Below are positions 4,980 to 19,417 of a stretch of 38,174 bases of DNA, one piece after another. Within the stretch, counting starts at the first letter, position 1; every line of letters begins with the position of its first letter. This DNA is from Chloroflexota bacterium (GTDB lineage: Bacteria > Chloroflexota > Dehalococcoidia > GIF9 > UBA5629). The stretch is taken from NCBI GenBank assembly GCA_016865895.1, contig VGNY01000008.1:1-38174 (forward strand), written 5' to 3'. The translations under genes and the position numbers were made by a program. Below the pieces are notes generated by a model that worked only from the letters and a program-made list of their open reading frames with translations, was not told where the DNA came from and did no database searches.

Positions 4980-7298
4980 GTGGATATCAAGAGATTCAAG
5001 GACGGAGCAATGGAGATTTATAAAGATGCCTCACAGTCAATAGATGCTAGAACTAAAAACCTAATTTCCACAATGACCCTGGATGAAAAGCTGGCACAGC
5101 TCGGTGGCATCTGGTGCTTCGAGATAATGGAGGACAAAAGATTTTCCTTAAAAAGAGCGGGGAGGCTCATTAAAAATGGCATCGGACAGATATCCCGAGC
5201 AGGGGTGGGTACCACCCTGTCACCCCCGGAAATCGCAGCGTTGGTAAATGATATTCAAAGGTTCCTGGTAGATAACACCAGGCTGGGAATACCAGCAATA
5301 GTCCACGAAGAATGTCTAAACGGCTTTATGGCAAAAGAGGCAACCATCTTCCCACAGATAATCGGCATAGCCAGCACCTGGGAACCGGAGCTGCTCGAGA
5401 GGATTACCCAAGTGCTCAGAGCCCAAATGAGAGCCATTGGAGTGCATCAAGGGCTTAGTCCCGTTTTAGATGTCACCCGAGACCCGCGGTGGGGAAGAGT
5501 CGAAGAAACCTTTGGAGAAGACCCTTACCTCGTCGCCAAAATGGGAACAGCGTATGTAAAAGGATTGCAAGGCGATGATTTAAGGGAAGGTGTTGTCGCC
5601 ACATTGAAACATTTCGTCGGCTATGGAGCACCAGAAGGCGGATTAAATTGGGCACCAGCCCCTATACCACCAAGAATGCTCAGAGAAATCTTCTTGCTCC
5701 CGTTTAAAGAGGCAATAGAAGTGGCTGGGGCTCTATCCGTCATGAACGCCTATCACGAAATTGACGGCATTCCTTGTGGTGCCTCTGCAGAGCTTCTTAC
5801 AGACATCCTGCGTAGGGAATGGGGATTCGAGGGAATCGTCGTTTCAGACTACTTCGCTATTCAGAATTTGCAGAGTTACCACAGGATAGCCGCTGACAAG
5901 GCAGGTGCAGCAAGGCTTGCTCTCGAAGCAGGTATTGATGTCGAGCTTCCTAAATCTGACTGCTATGCTCAGCCATTGAAAGAACAAATCGTAAAGGGGG
6001 TGGTCTCAGAAGAACTGGTCGACCGGGCTGTTTCAAGAGTACTACGGCTGAAGTTTATGCTGGGACTTTTTGAAAATCTATATGTGAAACCAGAAAAGAC
6101 AGCACGGGTTTTCGATATGCCAGAGCATCGTAAACTTGCGCTCGAAGCGGCACGAAAATCGCTGATTCTTCTGAAAAATGAAGGTAATATCCTGCCACTG
6201 AACAAGAATATTGAAACTATCGCTGTAATAGGGCCAAATGCAGATAGCTCTAGAAACCTTCTGGGAGATTACACTTACGCCGCCCACATCGGGATAACGG
6301 CAATCATGGCCAACTCCATAGGCACTCCTCTGTCTGCTGCCGATGTGGAGGCCGACCAAATCACTGTTCCTGTAGTCACCATACTGGAAGGGATTAAGGC
6401 AAAAGTTGCTTCCAATACAAAAGTCTTATATGCAATGGGTTGTGAAGCAAACAACGATTCCAGAAGTGGTTTCGATGAAGCCATAAAAGCTGCGCAGTTA
6501 GCCGACGTGGCAGTTGTAGTAGTCGGAGGAAAATCAGGTTTGACTCCAGAATGTACCTGCGGGGAAATGAGAGATAGCGCTGAACTTCGCCTTCCAGATG
6601 TTCAGGAAGACCTCGTGAAGGCTATTTATGAAACAGGCACTCCCACCGTGGTTATTCTCGTAAACGGAAGACCGCTTGCCCTTGAGTGGATAGCTAAAAA
6701 GATACCAGCTATTATTGCAGCGTGGCTGCCAGGTGAAGAAGGTGGCCATGCTGTTGCCGATATCCTTTTTGGCGACTACAATCCGGGAGGTAAGCTCCCC
6801 ATAACCTTCCCTAAAAAAGTTGGACAGATACCAATTTACTACGGCCTCAAGCCGTCCGGCGGTAAGTCACAGTTCTGGGGAGATTATGTTGACTGTAGCA
6901 TCAAACCTGCATTCGAGTTCGGCTACGGCCTTAGCTATACCACCTTCGAATTCACCAACCTCAGGATAGAACCGAAGCAAGTCTCACCAAAAGGCAAAGT
7001 CTCAATAAAGGTTGATATCAAGAATACCGGAAGCAGAGCCGGTGATGAGGTAGTCCAGCTCTACATCAACGACGTGGTTGCCTGTATCACTAGGCCCATC
7101 AAAGAATTGAAGGGTTTCAAGCGAATCGCCCTTGACCCAGACAAAACCAAGACCGTTAAATTCGAGTTGCCGGTGGAGATGCTCGGCTTCTATGACAAAA
7201 ATATGCAGCTCATTGTTGAACCGGGCACTTTCAAAATAATGGTGGGGCGTTCTTCCAAGGATATACTTCTAAATGGAGAATTTGAAGTAGTAGTGTGA
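4980..7298 (+). CDS. Glycoside hydrolase family 3 beta-glucosidase/xylosidase with C-terminal fibronectin III-like domain
   Basis: GH3 motifs including GLSPVLDVTRDPRWGRVEETFGEDPYL, KHFVGYG, FEGIVVSDY, FEFGYGLSYTTFEF; GTG start. Confidence 0.95.
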   Translation: MDIKRFKDGAMEIYKDASQSIDARTKNLISTMTLDEKLAQLGGIWCFEIMEDKRFSLKRAGRLIKNGIGQISRAGVGTTLSPPEIAALVNDIQRFLVDNTRLGIPAIVHEECLNGFMAKEATIFPQIIGIASTWEPELLERITQVLRAQMRAIGVHQGLSPVLDVTRDPRWGRVEETFGEDPYLVAKMGTAYVKGLQGDDLREGVVATLKHFVGYGAPEGGLNWAPAPIPPRMLREIFLLPFKEAIEVAGALSVMNAYHEIDGIPCGASAELLTDILRREWGFEGIVVSDYFAIQNLQSYHRIAADKAGAARLALEAGIDVELPKSDCYAQPLKEQIVKGVVSEELVDRAVSRVLRLKFMLGLFENLYVKPEKTARVFDMPEHRKLALEAARKSLILLKNEGNILPLNKNIETIAVIGPNADSSRNLLGDYTYAAHIGITAIMANSIGTPLSAADVEADQITVPVVTILEGIKAKVASNTKVLYAMGCEANNDSRSGFDEAIKAAQLADVAVVVVGGKSGLTPECTCGEMRDSAELRLPDVQEDLVKAIYETGTPTVVILVNGRPLALEWIAKKIPAIIAAWLPGEEGGHAVADILFGDYNPGGKLPITFPKKVGQIPIYYGLKPSGGKSQFWGDYVDCSIKPAFEFGYGLSYTTFEFTNLRIEPKQVSPKGKVSIKVDIKNTGSRAGDEVVQLYINDVVACITRPIKELKGFKRIALDPDKTKTVKFELPVEMLGFYDKNMQLIVEPGTFKIMVGRSSKDILLNGEFEVVV

Positions 7299-8395: not shown

Positions 8396-8599
8396 GCCTA
8401 GGTATGTGCCAAACTGCTCTCCAAAACCAACAACCAGCACTCCACATATAAAAACAGAGACTAGAGAACTTTTCACCCTAAACACAAGAGCCACCGATAG
8501 TAACAATCCGACAAAAGTTCAACCAGTTATGTTCTCAGAGGTACGCTTATAATTAAGTGAAACAAATCCACGATTGAGATGACACGGGGAGAGTCTTGC

Positions 8600-11134
8600 T
8601 TAATCTAGGTCTGCCTCGAGCGCTGATACAAAATCCTGATACTTGCCATCTCTTAGCCTTTGGAAAAATAAGTCATAGCTCTCCGGGGAAAGGATTTTGA
8701 AATAATAGTGTTGCCCTGTTGGTAAGCTATTAACTCTATTAAAATGCTCTCTGGCATACTTTAGCTTCGCTTTATTTTCGTCGGAAACATCTCCGTCTGC
8801 TTTGATCTCAATGACTAGAATATCTTGACCTATTTTAATAAAGAAGTCGGGGTTAAAGCTTCCTTGCTTGGGGTGTTCGCCTTTTCGCCACGAGTAGTTG
8901 ATGCTATAAAATCCAATATCAGGAGATTTCACCCAAGCGTCTATATATTTGGCATTTTCTTCGCTGACCAGTCTCTTAATGAAGTCCCTCTCGGGTTTGT
9001 AAGAGGCAAAAACCATGTTGAGCGGAGTTTTGAAATTGAAGACGTTCTCCACCTGTTGCAACGAGCGGACCAACCGGTTTTCGTCCTCCAGTAGTTCTAT
9101 CAGCAGCTTTCTATTCTCTTCGTTTTCTTCCTTGAGGGAATAATCATCAAAAAATATGCTGCTGTCTCTCCTTAAAGCTCCTATGCCAAGGCTGCCTTTG
9201 TTGATATCTTTGTCATCTGTGTGGATAGAATAAAGGTTCTCTATATCTGCCTCAACTTCATATCTTAGGCTTTTGGCGCTCTTTCTTTGTATTACACCAA
9301 ATGCTTGGAGAAACCTTTGTTTATTTTCCTGACTGACTAAATCATCTTCTTCACCCTTTCTTGCTAGCGAATTTCGCACAATGGCTAGGATTTTATCAAA
9401 GGGGTACTTCTGGCTGTAGTTTGTTCCCAACTCCAAGTCGTAACTCTTTAGCTTGTTGAATACATCCTGAGCCACTTCTTCAGCAGGATACATCTTATAT
9501 TCAATAGCTGTTTTCTTTGGCTTCTGCTCCTCGGTCACAGCTCGCTCATAAATAGTCTGACTTTCACTTACCCTATCTTGAGTGCTGATAGTAATGAAGC
9601 CTTTGCTAAAAACATATTCCTTAACCTGAGGTGTCTCCACCACTTTTGGCGTTCTGTCGTAGTTGATGTTATGCAGTACAAAGTTGTAGTCTTTATCTTT
9701 CGGTATGGGATAACTATACAACCTCTTTTCAATTTCGAGGACTTCGTTGACCAGATGCCTGATGCTACTTGACCATTTATCATGATTGAAGACTGTAACT
9801 ACTGGCTGTTCGCCTTTATATTGCGATGGAATACGTAAGCCTCGTCCCAACACCTGTGCAATCAAAAGCTTTGAATTGAAAGCACGCTCTTCGTGGGGAA
9901 CAATCTGGCACACATTCTGCACATCCCAGCCCTCCGACAGCATGCTGACTGAGGTAATCCACTCAACAGGATTATTCTTGGCATCGACATCTTTCAGTTT
10001 TGGCATGTTGCCCTTGTGCTCGCTGGCTGAAGTGACAATCAAGACTTTGCTGGTTGCAGCTTCCTTGCTTATGTTTTCCTTATCAGCCAGGAAATCTATT
10101 AAGTCATCGGTCAACCTTTTACAAGCAGCGATATCCTTAGTAACCAATATAGTTAGAGGCTTTATCAGGCGATACTTTAAGGCTTTATTTTGAATTTGAT
10201 TGTCGTAAATCTTCTGGAATTTCTCCTCTTTGGTGTGTGAGACATCTTCAGCAACATAGTCAATCGTTTTGACAAACCTTTTCTCAATAGACTCTCGCAG
10301 GGAGAAGCGATAGACAACATCAGTAAAATACTCATTACCCACATAGCAGGTTCCTGAATCACCCACGATATACTTGAAGTTGTATTTAGGGTCTAATAAA
10401 AACTCCTTCCACTTTTTCAAAGCCCAATCCCGAGCTGGTGGATTAGCCATATGATGTACTTCATCATTCACAACCAGTGCCCGCTCTCCTTTCCCAGCCA
10501 AGCTATCCTCAATAGCAGACTTGGTTCTCTCGTATGTAGCATGTATATTCTCTATGCAAATATCTCCACTTTGGATTGTTTGAGAAGCGTTGATAATTCG
10601 TGGATTGGAGATTACTGGCGAATCCGGCAGTAAATCCTTTAACGTTCTATTGGCCGACAAGCTTTTGAATTTCTCAGTCAGCCCTGCTTCAATGGTATTT
10701 GAGGGGCAAAGAACAAGAACCTGGTCCACCGCTCCTTCAGCCAGCATTATTCGGGCAATGCCATATATCACAAAGCTCTTGCCAGTGGCTGTAGCCAAAT
10801 CGAGAGAACAGGAAAGCTTGTCTGAGAGCTGCAGGTGCTTGTGGAAGTCGTCAAATGATGAATATACTTGTTGTAGGATTGGGTTTTGCCGGTAATTTTC
10901 CTGTGCCAAGTCTGTTAGGTTGTTATACCGTCCTCCGAGAAAATAACGAAGAACCTCTCTTATAGCTTCTTTCTGATAGTCTCTATCTCCGCAGAGAGCA
11001 TCAAGGAAATCCTCGTATCTGTTTATATCAAATTTTGTTGGGTCAATATTTGCCGAGACCTTCAACACTAAATCCTGATTTTTGACCAGTTGCCTGTCTG
11101 TAATCATCTTATCCCGCTTGGTTAGCAGAGTCAC
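8600..11134 (-). CDS. res: Type III restriction-like R subunit: SF2 DEAD/DEAH helicase with C-terminal PD-(D/E)xK nuclease
   Basis: Walker A-like ATATGKSFVIYG, DEVHH box (VNDEVHHMANPPARDWA), helicase motif VI-like AQVLGRGLRIP, C-terminal NPDFFIKIGQDILVIEIKADGD. GTG start overlaps the hicA stop by 4 nt. Confidence 0.88.
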   Translation of the reverse strand: MTLLTKRDKMITDRQLVKNQDLVLKVSANIDPTKFDINRYEDFLDALCGDRDYQKEAIREVLRYFLGGRYNNLTDLAQENYRQNPILQQVYSSFDDFHKHLQLSDKLSCSLDLATATGKSFVIYGIARIMLAEGAVDQVLVLCPSNTIEAGLTEKFKSLSANRTLKDLLPDSPVISNPRIINASQTIQSGDICIENIHATYERTKSAIEDSLAGKGERALVVNDEVHHMANPPARDWALKKWKEFLLDPKYNFKYIVGDSGTCYVGNEYFTDVVYRFSLRESIEKRFVKTIDYVAEDVSHTKEEKFQKIYDNQIQNKALKYRLIKPLTILVTKDIAACKRLTDDLIDFLADKENISKEAATSKVLIVTSASEHKGNMPKLKDVDAKNNPVEWITSVSMLSEGWDVQNVCQIVPHEERAFNSKLLIAQVLGRGLRIPSQYKGEQPVVTVFNHDKWSSSIRHLVNEVLEIEKRLYSYPIPKDKDYNFVLHNINYDRTPKVVETPQVKEYVFSKGFITISTQDRVSESQTIYERAVTEEQKPKKTAIEYKMYPAEEVAQDVFNKLKSYDLELGTNYSQKYPFDKILAIVRNSLARKGEEDDLVSQENKQRFLQAFGVIQRKSAKSLRYEVEADIENLYSIHTDDKDINKGSLGIGALRRDSSIFFDDYSLKEENEENRKLLIELLEDENRLVRSLQQVENVFNFKTPLNMVFASYKPERDFIKRLVSEENAKYIDAWVKSPDIGFYSINYSWRKGEHPKQGSFNPDFFIKIGQDILVIEIKADGDVSDENKAKLKYAREHFNRVNSLPTGQHYYFKILSPESYDLFFQRLRDGKYQDFVSALEADLD

Positions 11135-11352
11135 AGCAACCTGTTAAATTCGGCTACTGACAATCCTGCCTGTCGAATAATCGCTCGCAGTGTTCCTCGG
11201 TCTAGCTCCTTATGCAAAGGCACAACTACCTGGCAAAATGGTTCATCTCGCCTCAGTGTCACATGACTGCCTTCTTGTCTCTTAAAACGAAATCCCACTT
11301 TTTCTAAAGCCTTTATGCAGTCTTTACCTGATAAGGCAGGAAGCTTGCTCAT
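11131..11352 (-). CDS. hicA: HicA family toxin (mRNA interferase); start trimmed from the track ORF
   Basis: MSKLPALSGKDCIKALEKVGFRFKRQEGSHVTLRRDEPFCQVVVPLHKELDRGTLRAIIRQAGLSVAEFNRLL; HicA GSH motif; ATGA overlap with hicB. Confidence 0.93.
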   Translation of the reverse strand: MSKLPALSGKDCIKALEKVGFRFKRQEGSHVTLRRDEPFCQVVVPLHKELDRGTLRAIIRQAGLSVAEFNRLL

Positions 11353-11555
11353 ACCACTACCACTGATACCTCGAACCTCTCTTCGGGTACAGGAAGGTTG
11401 TCCTCTTCGAGGGCGTGGACGTAGCAATTTATAGCTTCCTTGATATTTTTAATTGCTTCCTCTTTTGTCTTCCCTTGGCTGATGCAGCCGGGCAAACTTG
11501 GACATTCCACTACCCAATAAACATCCTCACCTGGATATATAATGACTTCTCTCAT
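11349..11555 (-). CDS. hicB: HicB family antitoxin
   Basis: MREVIIYPGEDVYWVVECPSLPGCISQGKTKEEAIKNIKEAINCYVHAL...; typical HicB partial RNase H fold; RBS ggaggg upstream. Confidence 0.93.
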   Translation of the reverse strand: MREVIIYPGEDVYWVVECPSLPGCISQGKTKEEAIKNIKEAINCYVHALEEDNLPVPEERFEVSVVVV

Positions 11556-11639
11556 TTTGCCCTCCTATCTAATTTTGCCAACATTTAGAACTATATGCCT
11601 TACCACTGAAAACAAAGGCTCTTATTCTTCCTTTGACGG

Positions 11640-13589
11640 TCAATCGTTTCTAAGATCGATAATATGAGTAATGATATTATTTAGTGTCTTGCTCACCCTG
11701 TTCTGCTTCTGTGCTTCCTTAATAATCTCTTCAATAACTGTTGGATTCTTGCAAGTATCATCCTTCTTTAAACCTAGCTGCCCACACAATGCTCCAAGAG
11801 CGTCATTATAGAAGTCCTCACCAATTTCGTCACAAAGCGTCGAGGTCATGTTTTTCTTAAAGCAAGCGAAATTCCCTGTTACCTTCTCCGGCCAATCCTC
11901 AATAGGCTCGTTATGGAGTCTTAATAGTCGATGATTATCTTCAGCTTTGGCATCTTTCTTCTCACAGTCGCTGTCCCATATAGTGTATACTTTGATCTGC
12001 AAGCTACTAAAAATGGCAGTCGCCTTATCAAGATTACCTTTTCCCATGCATGGGATAACTGAAATTCCCAGGCTCTCCAAATTATGCCCTGCAGCGTTGG
12101 CAATCCCAAGTATTATAGCCCGATCCTCTTCTCCTTCAACTAAGACAGCTACATCAGCAAAGAATCCTTCATTCATCCACGGGGTCATAAGCGTTTGAAG
12201 GCGTGGTGACAACGTCTTACCTGTATAAGTGTCTTCAGGCTTGCCGTCAGCCTTTTCAATGATTTTCGCTACATCATCACGAGTAGTATAAAATACCTTT
12301 GTCTGCTTCGGCTCACCTTGTGCTCTTGACATTTTGCGAAGTGCACGCACACAATCAAGCTTTTCAACATCCACAAACAAAGGGGAATGTGTGCTATAGA
12401 TGATTTGTGTTTGCTCTGCTACCCCCTTAACGCTCCCCATCGCCAGTTGCAGTAGAATCTTGGATAGATGCCGCTGTCGATTCGGATGCTGATACAGTTC
12501 TGGTTCCTCAATACCGAGAATAAGGTTTGGCATCTTGAGCATCAGTTTTCCTTCAATGTTCTGTGCTTCTGCTACACCCTCCGTTCTCGGAGCTTGGGCA
12601 TGAGCAAGGTGTTGCAGCATGGTAAGAATAAAGGCCCGTTGAACACCATGACCAGCGTGGCTTACCGATGAAGGATACTCATCCTCTACAAGCTTGGTAT
12701 CAGCCCTTGGCATTGGAATCTCGATGCCATCTCCCTTTAGCCAAGTTAACCTGACAGCTGCGTCTGGAACATACATTTGGAGAGTTTTGCTAAGATCGAG
12801 CTCAAGGCTTTGTAGCTCAACAAGCTTTTCGGGATCCATGATTTCGTCATACCGTTTTTGCATATCTTCCTGTAGCTCCCTCATATCTTGTCGTTGTGCC
12901 AAAGTGCTGCGCACAACCAAGTCCATGATATTGGATATGACTGTGCCCCTACCCTCGGCTGCGTCTTCAGAAGCATCCCGCACCGCCGGGATCAAAAGGA
13001 AACGCGTGTAGCGCTCAAGATGGGCTTCACCAACCTCTTTGAAGCCAAAAAACTGTCCCTCATCAGGTTGTCGCGAACACTGCTCAGGATGCGACTCTTC
13101 CCAATTCTTCAGCACCTCGTTGGCCTCGTTCTGATTTGTATAGGATGGCAACTCAGGATAGCCGCCACGTAGTTTATTATATTCCACCCTGAGGTTACCT
13201 CCAGTTGCTCTTCGGAAGGAATCGAATTCTGGGTTTTGAAGTCTCATTCCGTGATATTTCTGACTACTTTTTCCCGGAGGCCATTCCATCATTTTCTTAA
13301 CAGCCAGTTCCCCACCCTCAACATATTTCTGGAAGAGCTTCTTTTCTTCCTCAATCAAATTGGTAAATGTCATGGTAATTGAGATGGGTTGTGAAGTCTG
13401 CCGTGCATAAAAGTCCTCGTCAGTATACTTAGCACTCACCTCATAGAATGCGTCTAGGGCGTGTAGAAACGAAGATTTCCCGGAACCGTTTGGCCCGACG
13501 AGAACTGTCAACAGCTTGCAAGGTAGAGTCTCATCTCGGATTGAACGGAAGTTTTGTACGCGCACCGATTTGACGATCACGGTTGCCAC
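11640..13589 (-). CDS. OLD family ATP-dependent nuclease (AAA ATPase + TOPRIM)
   Basis: Walker A VGPNGSGKSSFLHALDAFYE; ABC-like GIEEPELYQHPNRQR; YSTHSPLFVDVEKLD; TOPRIM VLVEGEEDRAIILG...IWDSD. GTG start. Confidence 0.92.
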   Translation of the reverse strand: MATVIVKSVRVQNFRSIRDETLPCKLLTVLVGPNGSGKSSFLHALDAFYEVSAKYTDEDFYARQTSQPISITMTFTNLIEEEKKLFQKYVEGGELAVKKMMEWPPGKSSQKYHGMRLQNPEFDSFRRATGGNLRVEYNKLRGGYPELPSYTNQNEANEVLKNWEESHPEQCSRQPDEGQFFGFKEVGEAHLERYTRFLLIPAVRDASEDAAEGRGTVISNIMDLVVRSTLAQRQDMRELQEDMQKRYDEIMDPEKLVELQSLELDLSKTLQMYVPDAAVRLTWLKGDGIEIPMPRADTKLVEDEYPSSVSHAGHGVQRAFILTMLQHLAHAQAPRTEGVAEAQNIEGKLMLKMPNLILGIEEPELYQHPNRQRHLSKILLQLAMGSVKGVAEQTQIIYSTHSPLFVDVEKLDCVRALRKMSRAQGEPKQTKVFYTTRDDVAKIIEKADGKPEDTYTGKTLSPRLQTLMTPWMNEGFFADVAVLVEGEEDRAIILGIANAAGHNLESLGISVIPCMGKGNLDKATAIFSSLQIKVYTIWDSDCEKKDAKAEDNHRLLRLHNEPIEDWPEKVTGNFACFKKNMTSTLCDEIGEDFYNDALGALCGQLGLKKDDTCKNPTVIEEIIKEAQKQNRVSKTLNNIITHIIDLRND

Positions 13590-13590
13590 C

Positions 13591-13806
13591 TCATCGAATT
13601 TTCGCCCACCGGTATCGATCCTTTACATAGCGGTGAAAGTAAGAGCCGTGAGAAGATGCGTGCATCAGTTCGTCATATATAGATTGAGGGACATCAAAGT
13701 ATTGGTATACACCACCACTATGGAACTCAATTTCCAAAGTGCGTGACTCAGAATCATAGCCGATAGAACTTATATTGCTTGAACTGACAGATTCACGTTT
13801 CATCAT
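13591..13806 (-). CDS. KTSC domain small protein
   Basis: VSSSNISSIGYDSESRTLEIEFHSGGVYQYFDVPQSIYDELMHASSHGSYFHRYVKDRYRWAKIR fits the KTSC domain pattern; 1 nt separates its stop from the OLD start. Confidence 0.85.
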   Translation of the reverse strand: MMKRESVSSSNISSIGYDSESRTLEIEFHSGGVYQYFDVPQSIYDELMHASSHGSYFHRYVKDRYRWAKIR

Positions 13807-13827
13807 TTAACCCCCAAGTGTAGCATC

Positions 13828-15984
13828 CTATATTGATTCGCGCTTCCTTCTATTAAAATCTTTTTGGATCTTAACCTCTCGCTTCTCGTTGCCGAAGATG
13901 TCTATGTAGATGAGCATCATCTGCCCATTAAGCTTAGACGAGTCAAAGTGTATTTCATAGCCTTGTTTTTTTAGGTCTTCGGCATAGAAAACATCGTCAA
14001 AGTTGAAGACCTCCCCATCGTAGTTGTAGTCCACCATCACCATAGACAGAGTCTCGAAGTTTTGGAAATGGAGTGGCTTTTTGGAGATGATGTTGCTTTC
14101 AAATCTAGTGATTTTGATTACAGCATCCTTGCTACTATGTCCTAAACTTGCCTGTCCTCTGGGTTTATCCAGATAGTACTCACAGTCAACCTCTGGAATC
14201 TGAATGAAATCGAAGCCTACAGCATCAACAGTGTCATTGACATCCATCTCGCTAACAGGCTGCTTGATGTGGGTAAAGCCTTTACGATGCAGCTCGTCAA
14301 TTATGGAATAGGGAATCCGCAATACAAAATATCTTGTGTTTCCCTTCTCGATGTAATCTTCTAGGAACATAACACTTGCTGCCGGAGCGATGACGAAAAA
14401 CCTTCTGCCTATTCTGTCACCCAAAATGGAGTGGAGATCATCAATAAAGCCCCTGTCTAGAACGGCATCTTTATGCTTTTTGTAATCAAAAACGAGGACA
14501 TCATCTGCTCCCAAGTAGCCATCCAGCTCTACTCCAGCAATTCGGTGCTTTTCATCCCGACACTGAAACAGCTTCAGGACAAAGCTACGATATTCCTCCC
14601 AGGGGAGTTTCTTAATCATCCGGTAGTCATAGAGTCCAGCATTGTATAGAGTAAATGGCTTAGGCTTCAGTGGCTTGCCCTTGTTTCCAATCTCCTCCTT
14701 TAGATTAAGGAGGCGCTTTTGCATGGTATAAACAGCTAGCTTCCCACAATCAATCATAATCCATCTTCTGCCAAGCTTCTCTGCTACAGCTCCAGTAGTT
14801 CCAGAGCCAGCGAAGGCGTCAAGGACAATATCTCCTTCGTCTGCTTTGTTAGAAGATAGCTCAATTATGCGTTCCAGTAACTCCTCAGAATTCTCAGTGG
14901 GGAAGCCTGTTGAACGTGAGTAAGATTCAATGTCTAGCCAAATATTGCTTATCTTCCTTTCAGAAGCACCGAGGTATTCCACTACGAAATTTCCATTTCT
15001 GCACGTTAAGCAATTCTCCAAATTCTCAACACCATGGACATAGGTTTCGGTTGTAACGTCGTAAAACTTGAACCGATGCTCCTTCTGCTTCATTCTTCGA
15101 AATAGGCCATGATTTGATTTCGCTTGGTAATATCGGGCGCCACAACTCCTGCACCTTAGTCTTAAATAAAATTCCCTAAGTAGCCTATCCACAGTAGACT
15201 GGATCAAAGCGAAATGCTGTCCTGCGGGTGGTGACAATGTTTTACCAAGAAATACACGCTCTCTCGGGTGTCTATCGCCAGCCATCAAGAAGGATGTCCA
15301 CTTTATTTCCGAGACTGGACGCCTAACCTTGACCTCACGGAAAACAAAATTTGATGACCTTGAATACCATAAGATAAGGTCATTATCTACTTCCATTTTC
15401 TCTCGAGCGCCAGCTATGTTTCTTCCTCTACTCACTACGATTTCGTTTCTAAAATTGTTCTTCCCAAAAACCTCATCCATTATCGCCTTAAGATAATGCC
15501 CAAAATGATAGTCTGTTCTGACATAGATGCTGCCGTCAGCAGCCAGAATTTCCCTTAAGAACACCAGCCTTTTCCTCAAGAACTCTATAAATTTAGCTCC
15601 TTGCAGTTTAGCTGAGTAGGCTGGAGCTTCGCCTCTGGCATTATAAACATCTCCGGTGCCAAAAGGCGGGTCAATATAAATGAGCCTAACCCTCCCCTTC
15701 ACTTCAGGGTCATTCATTAGAGTCTTAAGCACCTGAAGGTTATCGCCGAAGATGAGCTTGTTTGTCCAGCCGTCGCCGTTATTGCCAAAGGTCTTTACCG
15801 GTTGTAATGGCACACCCATTGTATCGGCGAGGATGTCCTCTTCGCGCTCCTTATCGGCATAGGTAAGCTCATATTCCTTCTTGGTCTCAAATGGAATTAT
15901 ATGACGATAGCTATCAGGAAGTTGTTTGCCTTCCTTAAGACAGCGAGTGATAAATTTAATTTCCTCTTCGCTCAGCCGAACCAT
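13828..15984 (-). CDS. mod: Type III-like adenine-N6 DNA methyltransferase (Mod), with a zinc-ribbon-like insertion
   Basis: LIFGDNLQVLKTL...LIYIDPPFGTGDVYNARGE (motif IV DPPF), VLDAFAGSGTTGAVAEKLGRRWIMIDCGKLA (motif I); CRSCGARYY...CLTCRNG insertion. Confidence 0.92.
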   Translation of the reverse strand: MVRLSEEEIKFITRCLKEGKQLPDSYRHIIPFETKKEYELTYADKEREEDILADTMGVPLQPVKTFGNNGDGWTNKLIFGDNLQVLKTLMNDPEVKGRVRLIYIDPPFGTGDVYNARGEAPAYSAKLQGAKFIEFLRKRLVFLREILAADGSIYVRTDYHFGHYLKAIMDEVFGKNNFRNEIVVSRGRNIAGAREKMEVDNDLILWYSRSSNFVFREVKVRRPVSEIKWTSFLMAGDRHPRERVFLGKTLSPPAGQHFALIQSTVDRLLREFYLRLRCRSCGARYYQAKSNHGLFRRMKQKEHRFKFYDVTTETYVHGVENLENCLTCRNGNFVVEYLGASERKISNIWLDIESYSRSTGFPTENSEELLERIIELSSNKADEGDIVLDAFAGSGTTGAVAEKLGRRWIMIDCGKLAVYTMQKRLLNLKEEIGNKGKPLKPKPFTLYNAGLYDYRMIKKLPWEEYRSFVLKLFQCRDEKHRIAGVELDGYLGADDVLVFDYKKHKDAVLDRGFIDDLHSILGDRIGRRFFVIAPAASVMFLEDYIEKGNTRYFVLRIPYSIIDELHRKGFTHIKQPVSEMDVNDTVDAVGFDFIQIPEVDCEYYLDKPRGQASLGHSSKDAVIKITRFESNIISKKPLHFQNFETLSMVMVDYNYDGEVFNFDDVFYAEDLKKQGYEIHFDSSKLNGQMMLIYIDIFGNEKREVKIQKDFNRRKRESI

Positions 15985-16269
15985 AACATCCTCTGTTTTG
16001 AGATAAGGTCATTTAAACATTCCAAATAATTCACACACCTAACCTTACAACTCTCGTTGCCATAGATTCATTATAGCTTGAGCATCCAATCAAAGACAAG
16101 AACGTATCTCTTAAGGTTTGCATCTTTTAGCGGATTGCGTAATCAGGGTAAGGATGTAAGTGTGCTTGGCTTACATCAAATACCCCTATATATCCATCTT
16201 TTACACTCTTATTTATTATTGGTGGGCACATTTCCATAAATTCCCGAGGACTTTACCCACAGGGATTTT

Positions 16270-17049: not shown

Positions 17050-17682
17050 TTAAATCCACTTCAAAATGCCCACAAACAAAATCAGGCAACTGATATCAAA
17101 GGCGAATATCACACCCACCGTAATGACTTTCTTCTTGACGCTCTCCATGTCGAATACCCAGAATGAAACCAAGAAGAAGCAAAGGTATCCTACCAGGAAA
17201 ATCAGCCACGGTGCACCTCTGCTCCACCATGAATAGTCCCAGGTAAGCGCACCGACGGCATTCAACAGATACTCAACGAAGACACAAAATACAGCGCCGA
17301 CGATAGCAAAAAGCAGTCGGTTGGGAATGCCCAGCACCTTCATTTTCTTGTCTTTAGGCAACATCTTGCTGAAGCCGATGCCAGCAATAGCGAACATAAA
17401 GCAAATCTCGATGTTCAGGCCAGCCAAAATCAAGTAGGCTGTTTGTCCTGGGGCACCCCAAACCGGGGCATATTGGGTGAAATGTAAGACCAGCCCATTC
17501 CAAATCTCATTGAACCAGTCCATGCCCCAGAATGCCAAACCAGCGAACACCAGGCTCCAGTTTCTCTTTTCAATCTCATTGGCATACACTAACACGACAA
17601 GAGCAAAGAGCGGGATGACATATCATTGAAACAGGCTTCCATCACGCAATATGCTCAAGGCTTGCTGGGCTGACTCTGTCAT
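17050..17682 (-). pseudogene. Polytopic membrane protein interrupted by in-frame TGA at codon 20 (17623-17625); track shows only the downstream part (17050..17595)
   Basis: Full frame reads MTESAQQALSILRDGSLFQ*YVIPLFALVVLVYANEIEKRNWSLVFAGLAFWGMDWFNEI...; ATG at 17682 has a ggaggtg RBS. Confidence 0.65.
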
Positions 17683-18772: not shown

Positions 18773-19417
18773 TCATTTGCGGTCAGGATGGCCGGCAGAT
18801 TCATGCTGCCCCCTCATAGCAACCTCGACAGCACGGCGATATAGCTCTAGTGGAACTGCACCTTCCAAAGATGAACCACCGGAAAATATAGTTGTCGGGA
18901 CACCAATGACAGACCCATTCTGCCTGGCCTCCCTGTAATCATCAAGAACTAGCTTTTCTCCTACCCGGCAGTCGAGGTCATGTGTCAACTGCTCCACATC
19001 CAATCCTATATCTGCAGCTATCGAAATAAGCACTTCACGGCGAGAAATATCGCGGCATTGCTCAAAAACTGCCCGAAATATCGCCATATGATAAAGCGCA
19101 AACCTATCACGGTCTCGAAGTTCCACACACTTGGCTGCTTTTAGTGCAGGAAGGCTGGATGATGGAAGGTCTTCTAAATCAGGCCAGGGTCGAAAGATTA
19201 GCGATGGCTCTTCTTCACTGGCTCTTGCCCAAACTCCAGCAAGATAGCTATTAAAGCGGCGCCCAGGTACATCATCCACCACCAGTGGATAGGCTTTCCA
19301 GAATATCTCAATTCCCGGGGCAAACTCCTGTTTCAACCGCTCTAGCCGCAACGCGGCTACATAGCACCAAGGTCAGAGATAGTCTGAGTAAACGGTGACA
19401 ATTAGCCCCTCTCCCAT
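18773..19417 (-). CDS. DsbA/FrnE-like thioredoxin-fold oxidoreductase, candidate selenoprotein (UPWC; UGA at 19373-19375)
   Basis: Frame reads MGEGLIVTVYSDYL[TGA]PWCYVAALRLERLKQEFAPGIEIFWKAYPL...SVIGVPTTIFSGG: TGA replaces the first Cys of CPWC, cis-Pro GVPT is present, and reading continues in frame. Confidence 0.82.
19343..19359 (-). promoter_or_regulatory. Putative bacterial SECIS hairpin immediately 3' of the UGA
   Basis: Minus strand TAGCCGC-GTT-GCGGCTA: perfect 7-bp stem, 3-nt loop starting with G, loop 20 nt after the UGA. Confidence 0.7.

Follow-up and report, generated by a model that had tools for sequence, protein, structure and literature searches.

DsbA-like selenoproteins with a UxxC active site were described in 2005 from the Sargasso Sea, where nine sequences were assigned to COG2761 (PMC1088965). 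The family reappears, with counts of 41 and 45 (probably organisms and proteins, respectively), in a table of a survey covering more than 5200 genomes (PMC5029168) and is listed as “DsbA-like protein form 1, PF01323, UxxC” in a review of 2026 (PMC13188914). The same review gives the limits within which a bacterial SECIS element (bSECIS) is expected: an upper stem of 4–16 bp, a loop of 3–9 nt, a distance of 16–37 nt and, in the loop, a G in first or second position, often followed by G or U (PMC13188914). No report on the substrate of any UPWC DsbA-like protein was found in the literature searched.

The stretch of DNA analyzed here in its entirety, hereafter called the window, consists of 38,174 nucleotides of a draft Chloroflexota genome and contains a gene in which a TGA codon takes the place of the first redox Cys of a CPWC motif. 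That this gene belongs to the known DsbA-like UxxC selenoprotein family, a phenomenon on record since 2005, is strongly supported; the first-pass annotation, which did not count UPWC among the widely described members of its family, has to be corrected on this point, as UxxC members are both described (COG2761/PF01323; PMC1088965, PMC5029168, PMC13188914) and common. The lines of evidence presented below, drawn from sequence comparison and modeling, give us high confidence that the product is a cytoplasmic DsbA-fold thiol-disulfide oxidoreductase and a genuine selenoprotein, in which UGA would be translated as selenocysteine (Sec) by way of a SECIS element, giving rise to a Se–S redox pair.

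The recoded gene and its domain

With TGA translated as Sec, the minus strand encodes MGEGLIVTVYSDYL-U-PWCYVAALRLERL..., a protein of 214 residues that extends to a terminal TGA and whose N-terminus is MGEGLIVTVYSDYLUPWC; the ATG from which it starts (Table 1) agrees with the starts of the homologues in the alignment. The standard-code ORF begins instead at an internal TTG, whereby the active site is dropped. The first-pass annotation had noticed this internal start, had located the TGA, with an open frame on both sides, exactly at the first redox Cys and had pointed to a cis-Pro motif GVPT further downstream, and in all three respects it proved correct.

Table 1. Position of the gene, its active site and the associated signals in the window
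Feature	Position	Strand	Remarks
Selenoprotein gene, DsbA/FrnE-like oxidoreductase, 214 aa	18773..19417	(-)	ATG 19417, stop TGA 18775-18773
In-frame TGA, predicted selenocysteine, U15 of UPWC	19373..19375	(-)	Translation; Sec/Cys exchange at the column
UPWC redox motif Sec15-Pro-Trp-Cys18	19364..19375	(-)	Translation, 31-row alignment
Predicted bacterial SECIS UAGCCGC-GUU-GCGGCUA	19343..19359	(-)	7-bp perfect stem, 3-nt loop
Internal TTG, called start	19349..19351	(-)	In SECIS loop and 3′ arm; annotation artefact
cis-Pro loop G172-V173-P174-T175	18893..18904	(-)	P174 invariant in 31 rows

The recoded protein matches the Pfam domain DSBA (PF01323) over residues 7–197 (79.6 bits, cut-off 25.6, E 3.5e-22), so that the domain includes the stretch encoded upstream of the TGA. 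The columns found to be invariant in the 31-row alignment are D12, U/C15, P16, C18, the cis-Pro P174 and G186. The second Cys of the UxxC motif is kept in the UPWC protein, and in a DsbA fold the cis-Pro loop should lie opposite the active site. Inspection of the recoded protein revealed that Cys is absent from the last ~60 residues, and with it a C-terminal CxxxxC pair. An extra Cys lies outside UPWC in an AAKC motif (~residue 97) that is present in most of the Sec and Cys members of the clade to which the window protein belongs.

Alignment of the window's other genes with those of a syntenic sister genome disclosed a single further in-frame stop in 4762 aligned residues, a TGA at a Trp codon; since such stops are so rare, and since the homologues carry either TGA or TGC at the position in question, the presence of TGA at the catalytic Cys is more than chance. 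The other stop is found in a gene for a membrane protein of ~210 aa (17050-17682, minus strand), in which codon 20 is TGA (17625-17623) and its counterpart in the sister (L203:3984-4616) is TGG (Trp), the remainder being 89% identical with changes mostly in third position. This TGA is attributed either to a nonsense mutation of recent date or to faulty assembly and, because it replaces Trp and not Cys, the membrane protein is not a Sec candidate.

Exchange of selenocysteine and cysteine among the homologues

A homologue is present in 140 of the 393 genomes of the class. Nine of the best 13 class-level matches with a readable motif have UPWC (TGA) and four have CPWC (TGC) at the same column, which is occupied by UGA or Cys in 31 of 31 aligned rows; the alternation of Sec and Cys that the first-pass annotation had proposed to look for is therefore found. 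A degenerate DNA pattern for D-Y-x-U-P-W-C-Y, run on the GTDB genomes, retrieved at least 118 stretches and, among the matches listed, in at least 109 stretches from about ten phyla the frame stays open for 120 codons or more 3′ of the TGA, the leading phyla among these UPWC stretches being Pseudomonadota, Thermodesulfobacteriota, Chloroflexota and Myxococcota. UPWC DsbA-like genes are thus common across phyla.

Matches to UPWC also turned up on two viral contigs. On the first (L179, IMG/VR, ~547-570) a UPWC DsbA-like gene located near the contig edge groups with a Geobacter gene and probably represents the host flank of a prophage; the match on the second (L180) was rejected as a chance occurrence, being out of frame within another open frame.

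The breadth of this distribution bears on the reading in which the TGA is a true stop, so that the locus would be either a pseudogene or a gene starting at the internal TTG and encoding a 192-residue protein devoid of the active site. Standard gene calling does yield the TTG ORF, the membrane protein gene nearby has suffered what looks like a nonsense change at a Trp codon and the sister genome appears to have lost the gene by deletion (see below). However, the same UGA is common to divergent homologues of many phyla, the frame upstream of it is conserved among them (VTVYSDYL), both C18 and the cis-Pro are retained, the TTG falls within the SECIS hairpin and the genome is endowed with a Sec machinery, all of which leaves a true stop highly improbable.

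The SECIS hairpin

Immediately 3′ of the UGA the sequence is CCUUGGUGCUAUG, after which comes a hairpin whose stem begins 13 nt and whose loop begins 20 nt past the UGA, the loop opening with G and then U. With its 7 bp, its GUU loop and its distance of 20 nt, this element falls within all the bSECIS limits quoted above (PMC13188914). The region is modestly stable in comparison with shuffles of 50 nt (z -1.4), and z is about -2.2 in a codon-preserving test; an Rfam search of the SECIS region gave nothing significant. Since the called TTG start sits inside this hairpin, it is to be considered an annotation artefact, and the recoding corrects a gene call that both loses the active site and sets the start codon inside the SECIS.

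The behavior of the hairpin in the family was analyzed by synonymous codon re-sampling of 123 Sec genes and 33 Cys genes. The signal exceeding the codon constraint has a mean z of 1.28 in the former (n=123) versus -0.02 in the latter (n=33; Mann-Whitney p=5e-8). The position of the hairpin is fixed in the Sec genes, with the loop starting at nt 23-24 in 91 of the 115 scored hairpins, and the paired fraction of their stem is 0.90 as opposed to the 0.72 expected from the columns, the corresponding values for the Cys genes being 0.63 and 0.62. The stem pairs of the Sec genes are compensatory, with A-U, C-G, G-C and U-A all represented and changes on both sides, and base 24 is a G in 121 of 123 Sec genes versus 15 of 33 Cys genes; of the two Sec genes that have a T at base 24 one is that of the window, the G of its loop being at base 23. 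On these counts the Cys genes would mostly be without the hairpin of the Sec genes, a contrast that is in part phylogenetic, given that the counts follow descent and that the independent Sec/Cys pairs on well-supported branches number only four, too few for the comparison restricted to them to reach significance.

The hairpin is also relevant to the premise that a sequencing or assembly error conceals a real TGC or TGT codon and hence an ordinary CPWC protein. This premise could draw on the state of the draft, fragmented into 306 contigs and with 8.9% contamination, and on the fact that the three homologues closest to the window protein by tree path are Cys forms. Yet Sec forms are found in the same clade, the stems of the closest Cys forms score 3, 3 and 0 against 19 in the window, being in no way comparable, and an error arising by chance would not be accompanied by a SECIS hairpin placed at just the canonical spacing. 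An assembly error at the TGA is judged very unlikely, because this codon is common to the homologues and is followed at once by the hairpin, so that an ordinary CPWC protein deserves hardly any credence.

The selenocysteine machinery and the native state of the contig

The draft genome (2.6 Mb, 306 contigs, 96% complete, 8.9% contamination), of which the window constitutes contig C8, contains all the genes for which the first-pass annotation had suggested a search. A tRNA-Sec with anticodon UCA, identified with Rfam RF01852 (72.7 bits), lies on a contig of 8.7 kb (C92) at ~1 kb from a full-length selB (349 bits), which is adjoined at the contig end by the C-terminal part of selA; the match of the latter (262 bits) is slightly under the cut-off of 268 because the gene is truncated by the end of the contig. 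The fourth gene, selD (397 bits), is located on contig C73 and has itself an in-frame TGA (L025 1531-1533) in the context MNKKTSPRLTQSVSGAG-U-ASKLGPGDL, the motif being GAGUASKLGPGDL, so that SelD of this organism is predicted to be a selenoprotein in its own right; the UGA is found at the position usually occupied by Sec or Cys in this protein.

The GC content of the window contig is 0.477, compared with 0.474-0.531 in the contigs bearing the sel genes, and its E1-alpha gene displays 87% identity to that of two genomes of the same family. In light of this sel-like composition, of the E1-alpha identity and of the synteny with a same-family genome, the contig is regarded as native and not as a stray.

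UGA has been reassigned elsewhere among bacteria and a second window gene has a TGA where the sister has Trp, but a reading of UGA as some other residue (Trp, Gly or Cys, through a code change or near-cognate reading) has next to no plausibility here, since the DsbA-like gene itself terminates in TGA, a fact that argues against global reassignment, only one other aligned window gene has an internal TGA, a dedicated tRNA-Sec(UCA), SelB and SelD are at hand and the critical column holds UGA or Cys in every aligned row. The Sec insertion proposed by the first-pass annotation is supported by the machinery, by the Sec/Cys exchange at the column and by the SECIS hairpin, and the case for a UGA read as Sec is, as far as sequence can tell, very strong.

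Fold, location and proposed mechanism

An AlphaFold2 model built with 31 sequences (the window and related loci) displays a DsbA fold (mean pLDDT 95.7, pTM 0.91), and the nearest structures retrieved by Foldseek are 2in3 (a putative disulfide isomerase), FrnE of Deinococcus radiodurans, SCO1869, YjbH, the kappa GST and the cytosolic reductase DsbM. No signal peptide for export is seen in either the model or the sequence, the first strand, formed by residues 5-11, leaving no space for it; in this respect the protein differs from periplasmic DsbA, the oxidase partner of DsbB. The earlier designation as DsbA/FrnE-like stands as far as the DsbA fold is concerned and is refined in the sense that, within this fold, the modeled protein resembles the cytoplasmic FrnE/DsbM/kappa-GST branch more closely than it does periplasmic DsbA. 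A cytoplasmic reductase or isomerase seems likelier than a DsbB-coupled oxidase, given that a signal peptide is missing and that FrnE and DsbM are among the neighbors in fold.

Since a Pfam search detected no second DSBA-domain protein above the cut-off elsewhere in the genome, this cell seems to possess no member of the family other than the Sec protein. The neighboring genes, consisting of acyl-CoA dehydrogenases upstream and a convergent BrkB/YihY membrane protein, do not point to a substrate.

We infer the incorporation of Sec in vivo, the redox direction and the substrate, while the roles attributed to Sec15 and Cys18 are modeled on DsbA/thioredoxin chemistry. SelB and the Sec-tRNA(UCA) would decode UGA codon 15 as Sec, guided by the SECIS hairpin; in the folded protein Sec15 would act as the attacking nucleophile on a disulfide or another oxidized group of the substrate, yielding a selenenyl-sulfide mixed intermediate that Cys18 would resolve with formation of an intramolecular Se–S bond. 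The groove for the substrate would be shaped by cis-Pro174, and re-reduction of the Se–S enzyme would fall to a cellular thiol system.

Evolution of the gene

A quick tree inferred from 156 rows places the window protein in a distinct clade with full support, made up of 15 Sec and 4 Cys rows that come mainly from Chloroflexota of its own class; a large Sec clade, comprising 92 Sec rows of mainly proteobacterial/desulfobacterial origin, stands apart from it. The best tree entails nine changes between Sec and Cys, at least four of which are on well-supported branches. It is rather doubtful, albeit conceivable, that the window clade represents a separate undescribed UPWC subfamily in which Sec would have been gained or kept independently of the large Sec clade, with a SECIS register of its own (in the window gene and in a few of its relatives the loop is centered earlier by one base) and with the Cys of AAKC (~97) maybe taking part in catalysis; a published description of this clade was not found in the literature searched.

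A full-length copy of the gene was found in none of 60 relatives of the same family and order (E 1e-5), 18 of which have a selB match. The sister genome G003, belonging to the same family but to another genus and possessing selB, is syntenic on both sides of the locus, with ~77-81% nucleotide identity over most shared blocks; its junction is without the gene, apart from a 3′ remnant of ~75 bp that aligns to the last codons (L203 ~5710-5784, contig C4). Because G003 is syntenic and holds this piece of the 3′ end, the gene would predate the split of the two genera; it was probably present in their common ancestor, and G003 would have lost it through an internal deletion but retained SelB. The possibility of a recent horizontal arrival or of a contaminant contig, raised by the absence of the gene from the 60 order-level relatives, was discarded as the simplest reading in view of the same synteny and remnant. 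The locus thus adds a machinery-backed selenoprotein to a lineage in which the Sec trait is patchy, and the sister, with its SelB and the 3′ remnant alone, offers an instance of gene loss caught in the act.

A further difference between the two genomes concerns the stretch 8396-16267, which is absent from the otherwise syntenic G003. Within it, a ResIII-type helicase, an OLD-family AAA/TOPRIM ATPase and a DNA methylase are encoded side by side (8600-15984, minus strand), apparently constituting a restriction/defence island.

Comparison with known systems

The Rcas_1661 family (seleno)lipoprotein (DsbG-like, NF041057) is, like the window protein, a thioredoxin-like selenoprotein family and gives a partial match; membership was rejected at 44.7 bits, far under the curated cut-off of 190, and unlike this named lipoprotein the window protein is without a signal sequence. 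Closest in fold are 2in3, DsbM (5hfg), YjbH and the kappa-class GST (E 3.5e-11 to about 1e-8), whose identity to the window protein is nevertheless only 17-22% and whose entries describe Cys or Ser enzymes, not selenoproteins.

FrnE, represented by D. radiodurans DR_0659 (5cnw/5co3) and Streptomyces SCO1869 (3gl5), shares with the window protein the fold (TM 0.74-0.81 by query length), the position of CP(W/F)C, the cis-Pro loop and the predicted cytoplasmic location. The traits of the FrnE subfamily (cd03024) are accordingly seen in the window protein, that is a DsbA fold, a CPWC/CPFC-type site, with Sec for the first Cys, and a predicted cytoplasmic location. It differs from FrnE in having this Sec, in its length (214 residues vs ~240-260) and in the lack of the C-terminal CxxxxC, a pair that is also absent from some FrnE (PMC8945050).

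The DsbA-like form 1 family matches in all the traits compared, namely a DsbA-fold domain, a Sec-UGA in first position of UxxC, a predicted SECIS right after the UGA and widespread Cys homologues. What sets the window protein apart is its placement in a clade distinct from the large proteobacterial/desulfobacterial Sec clade, and it is this separate clade that might represent a new element in an otherwise known family.
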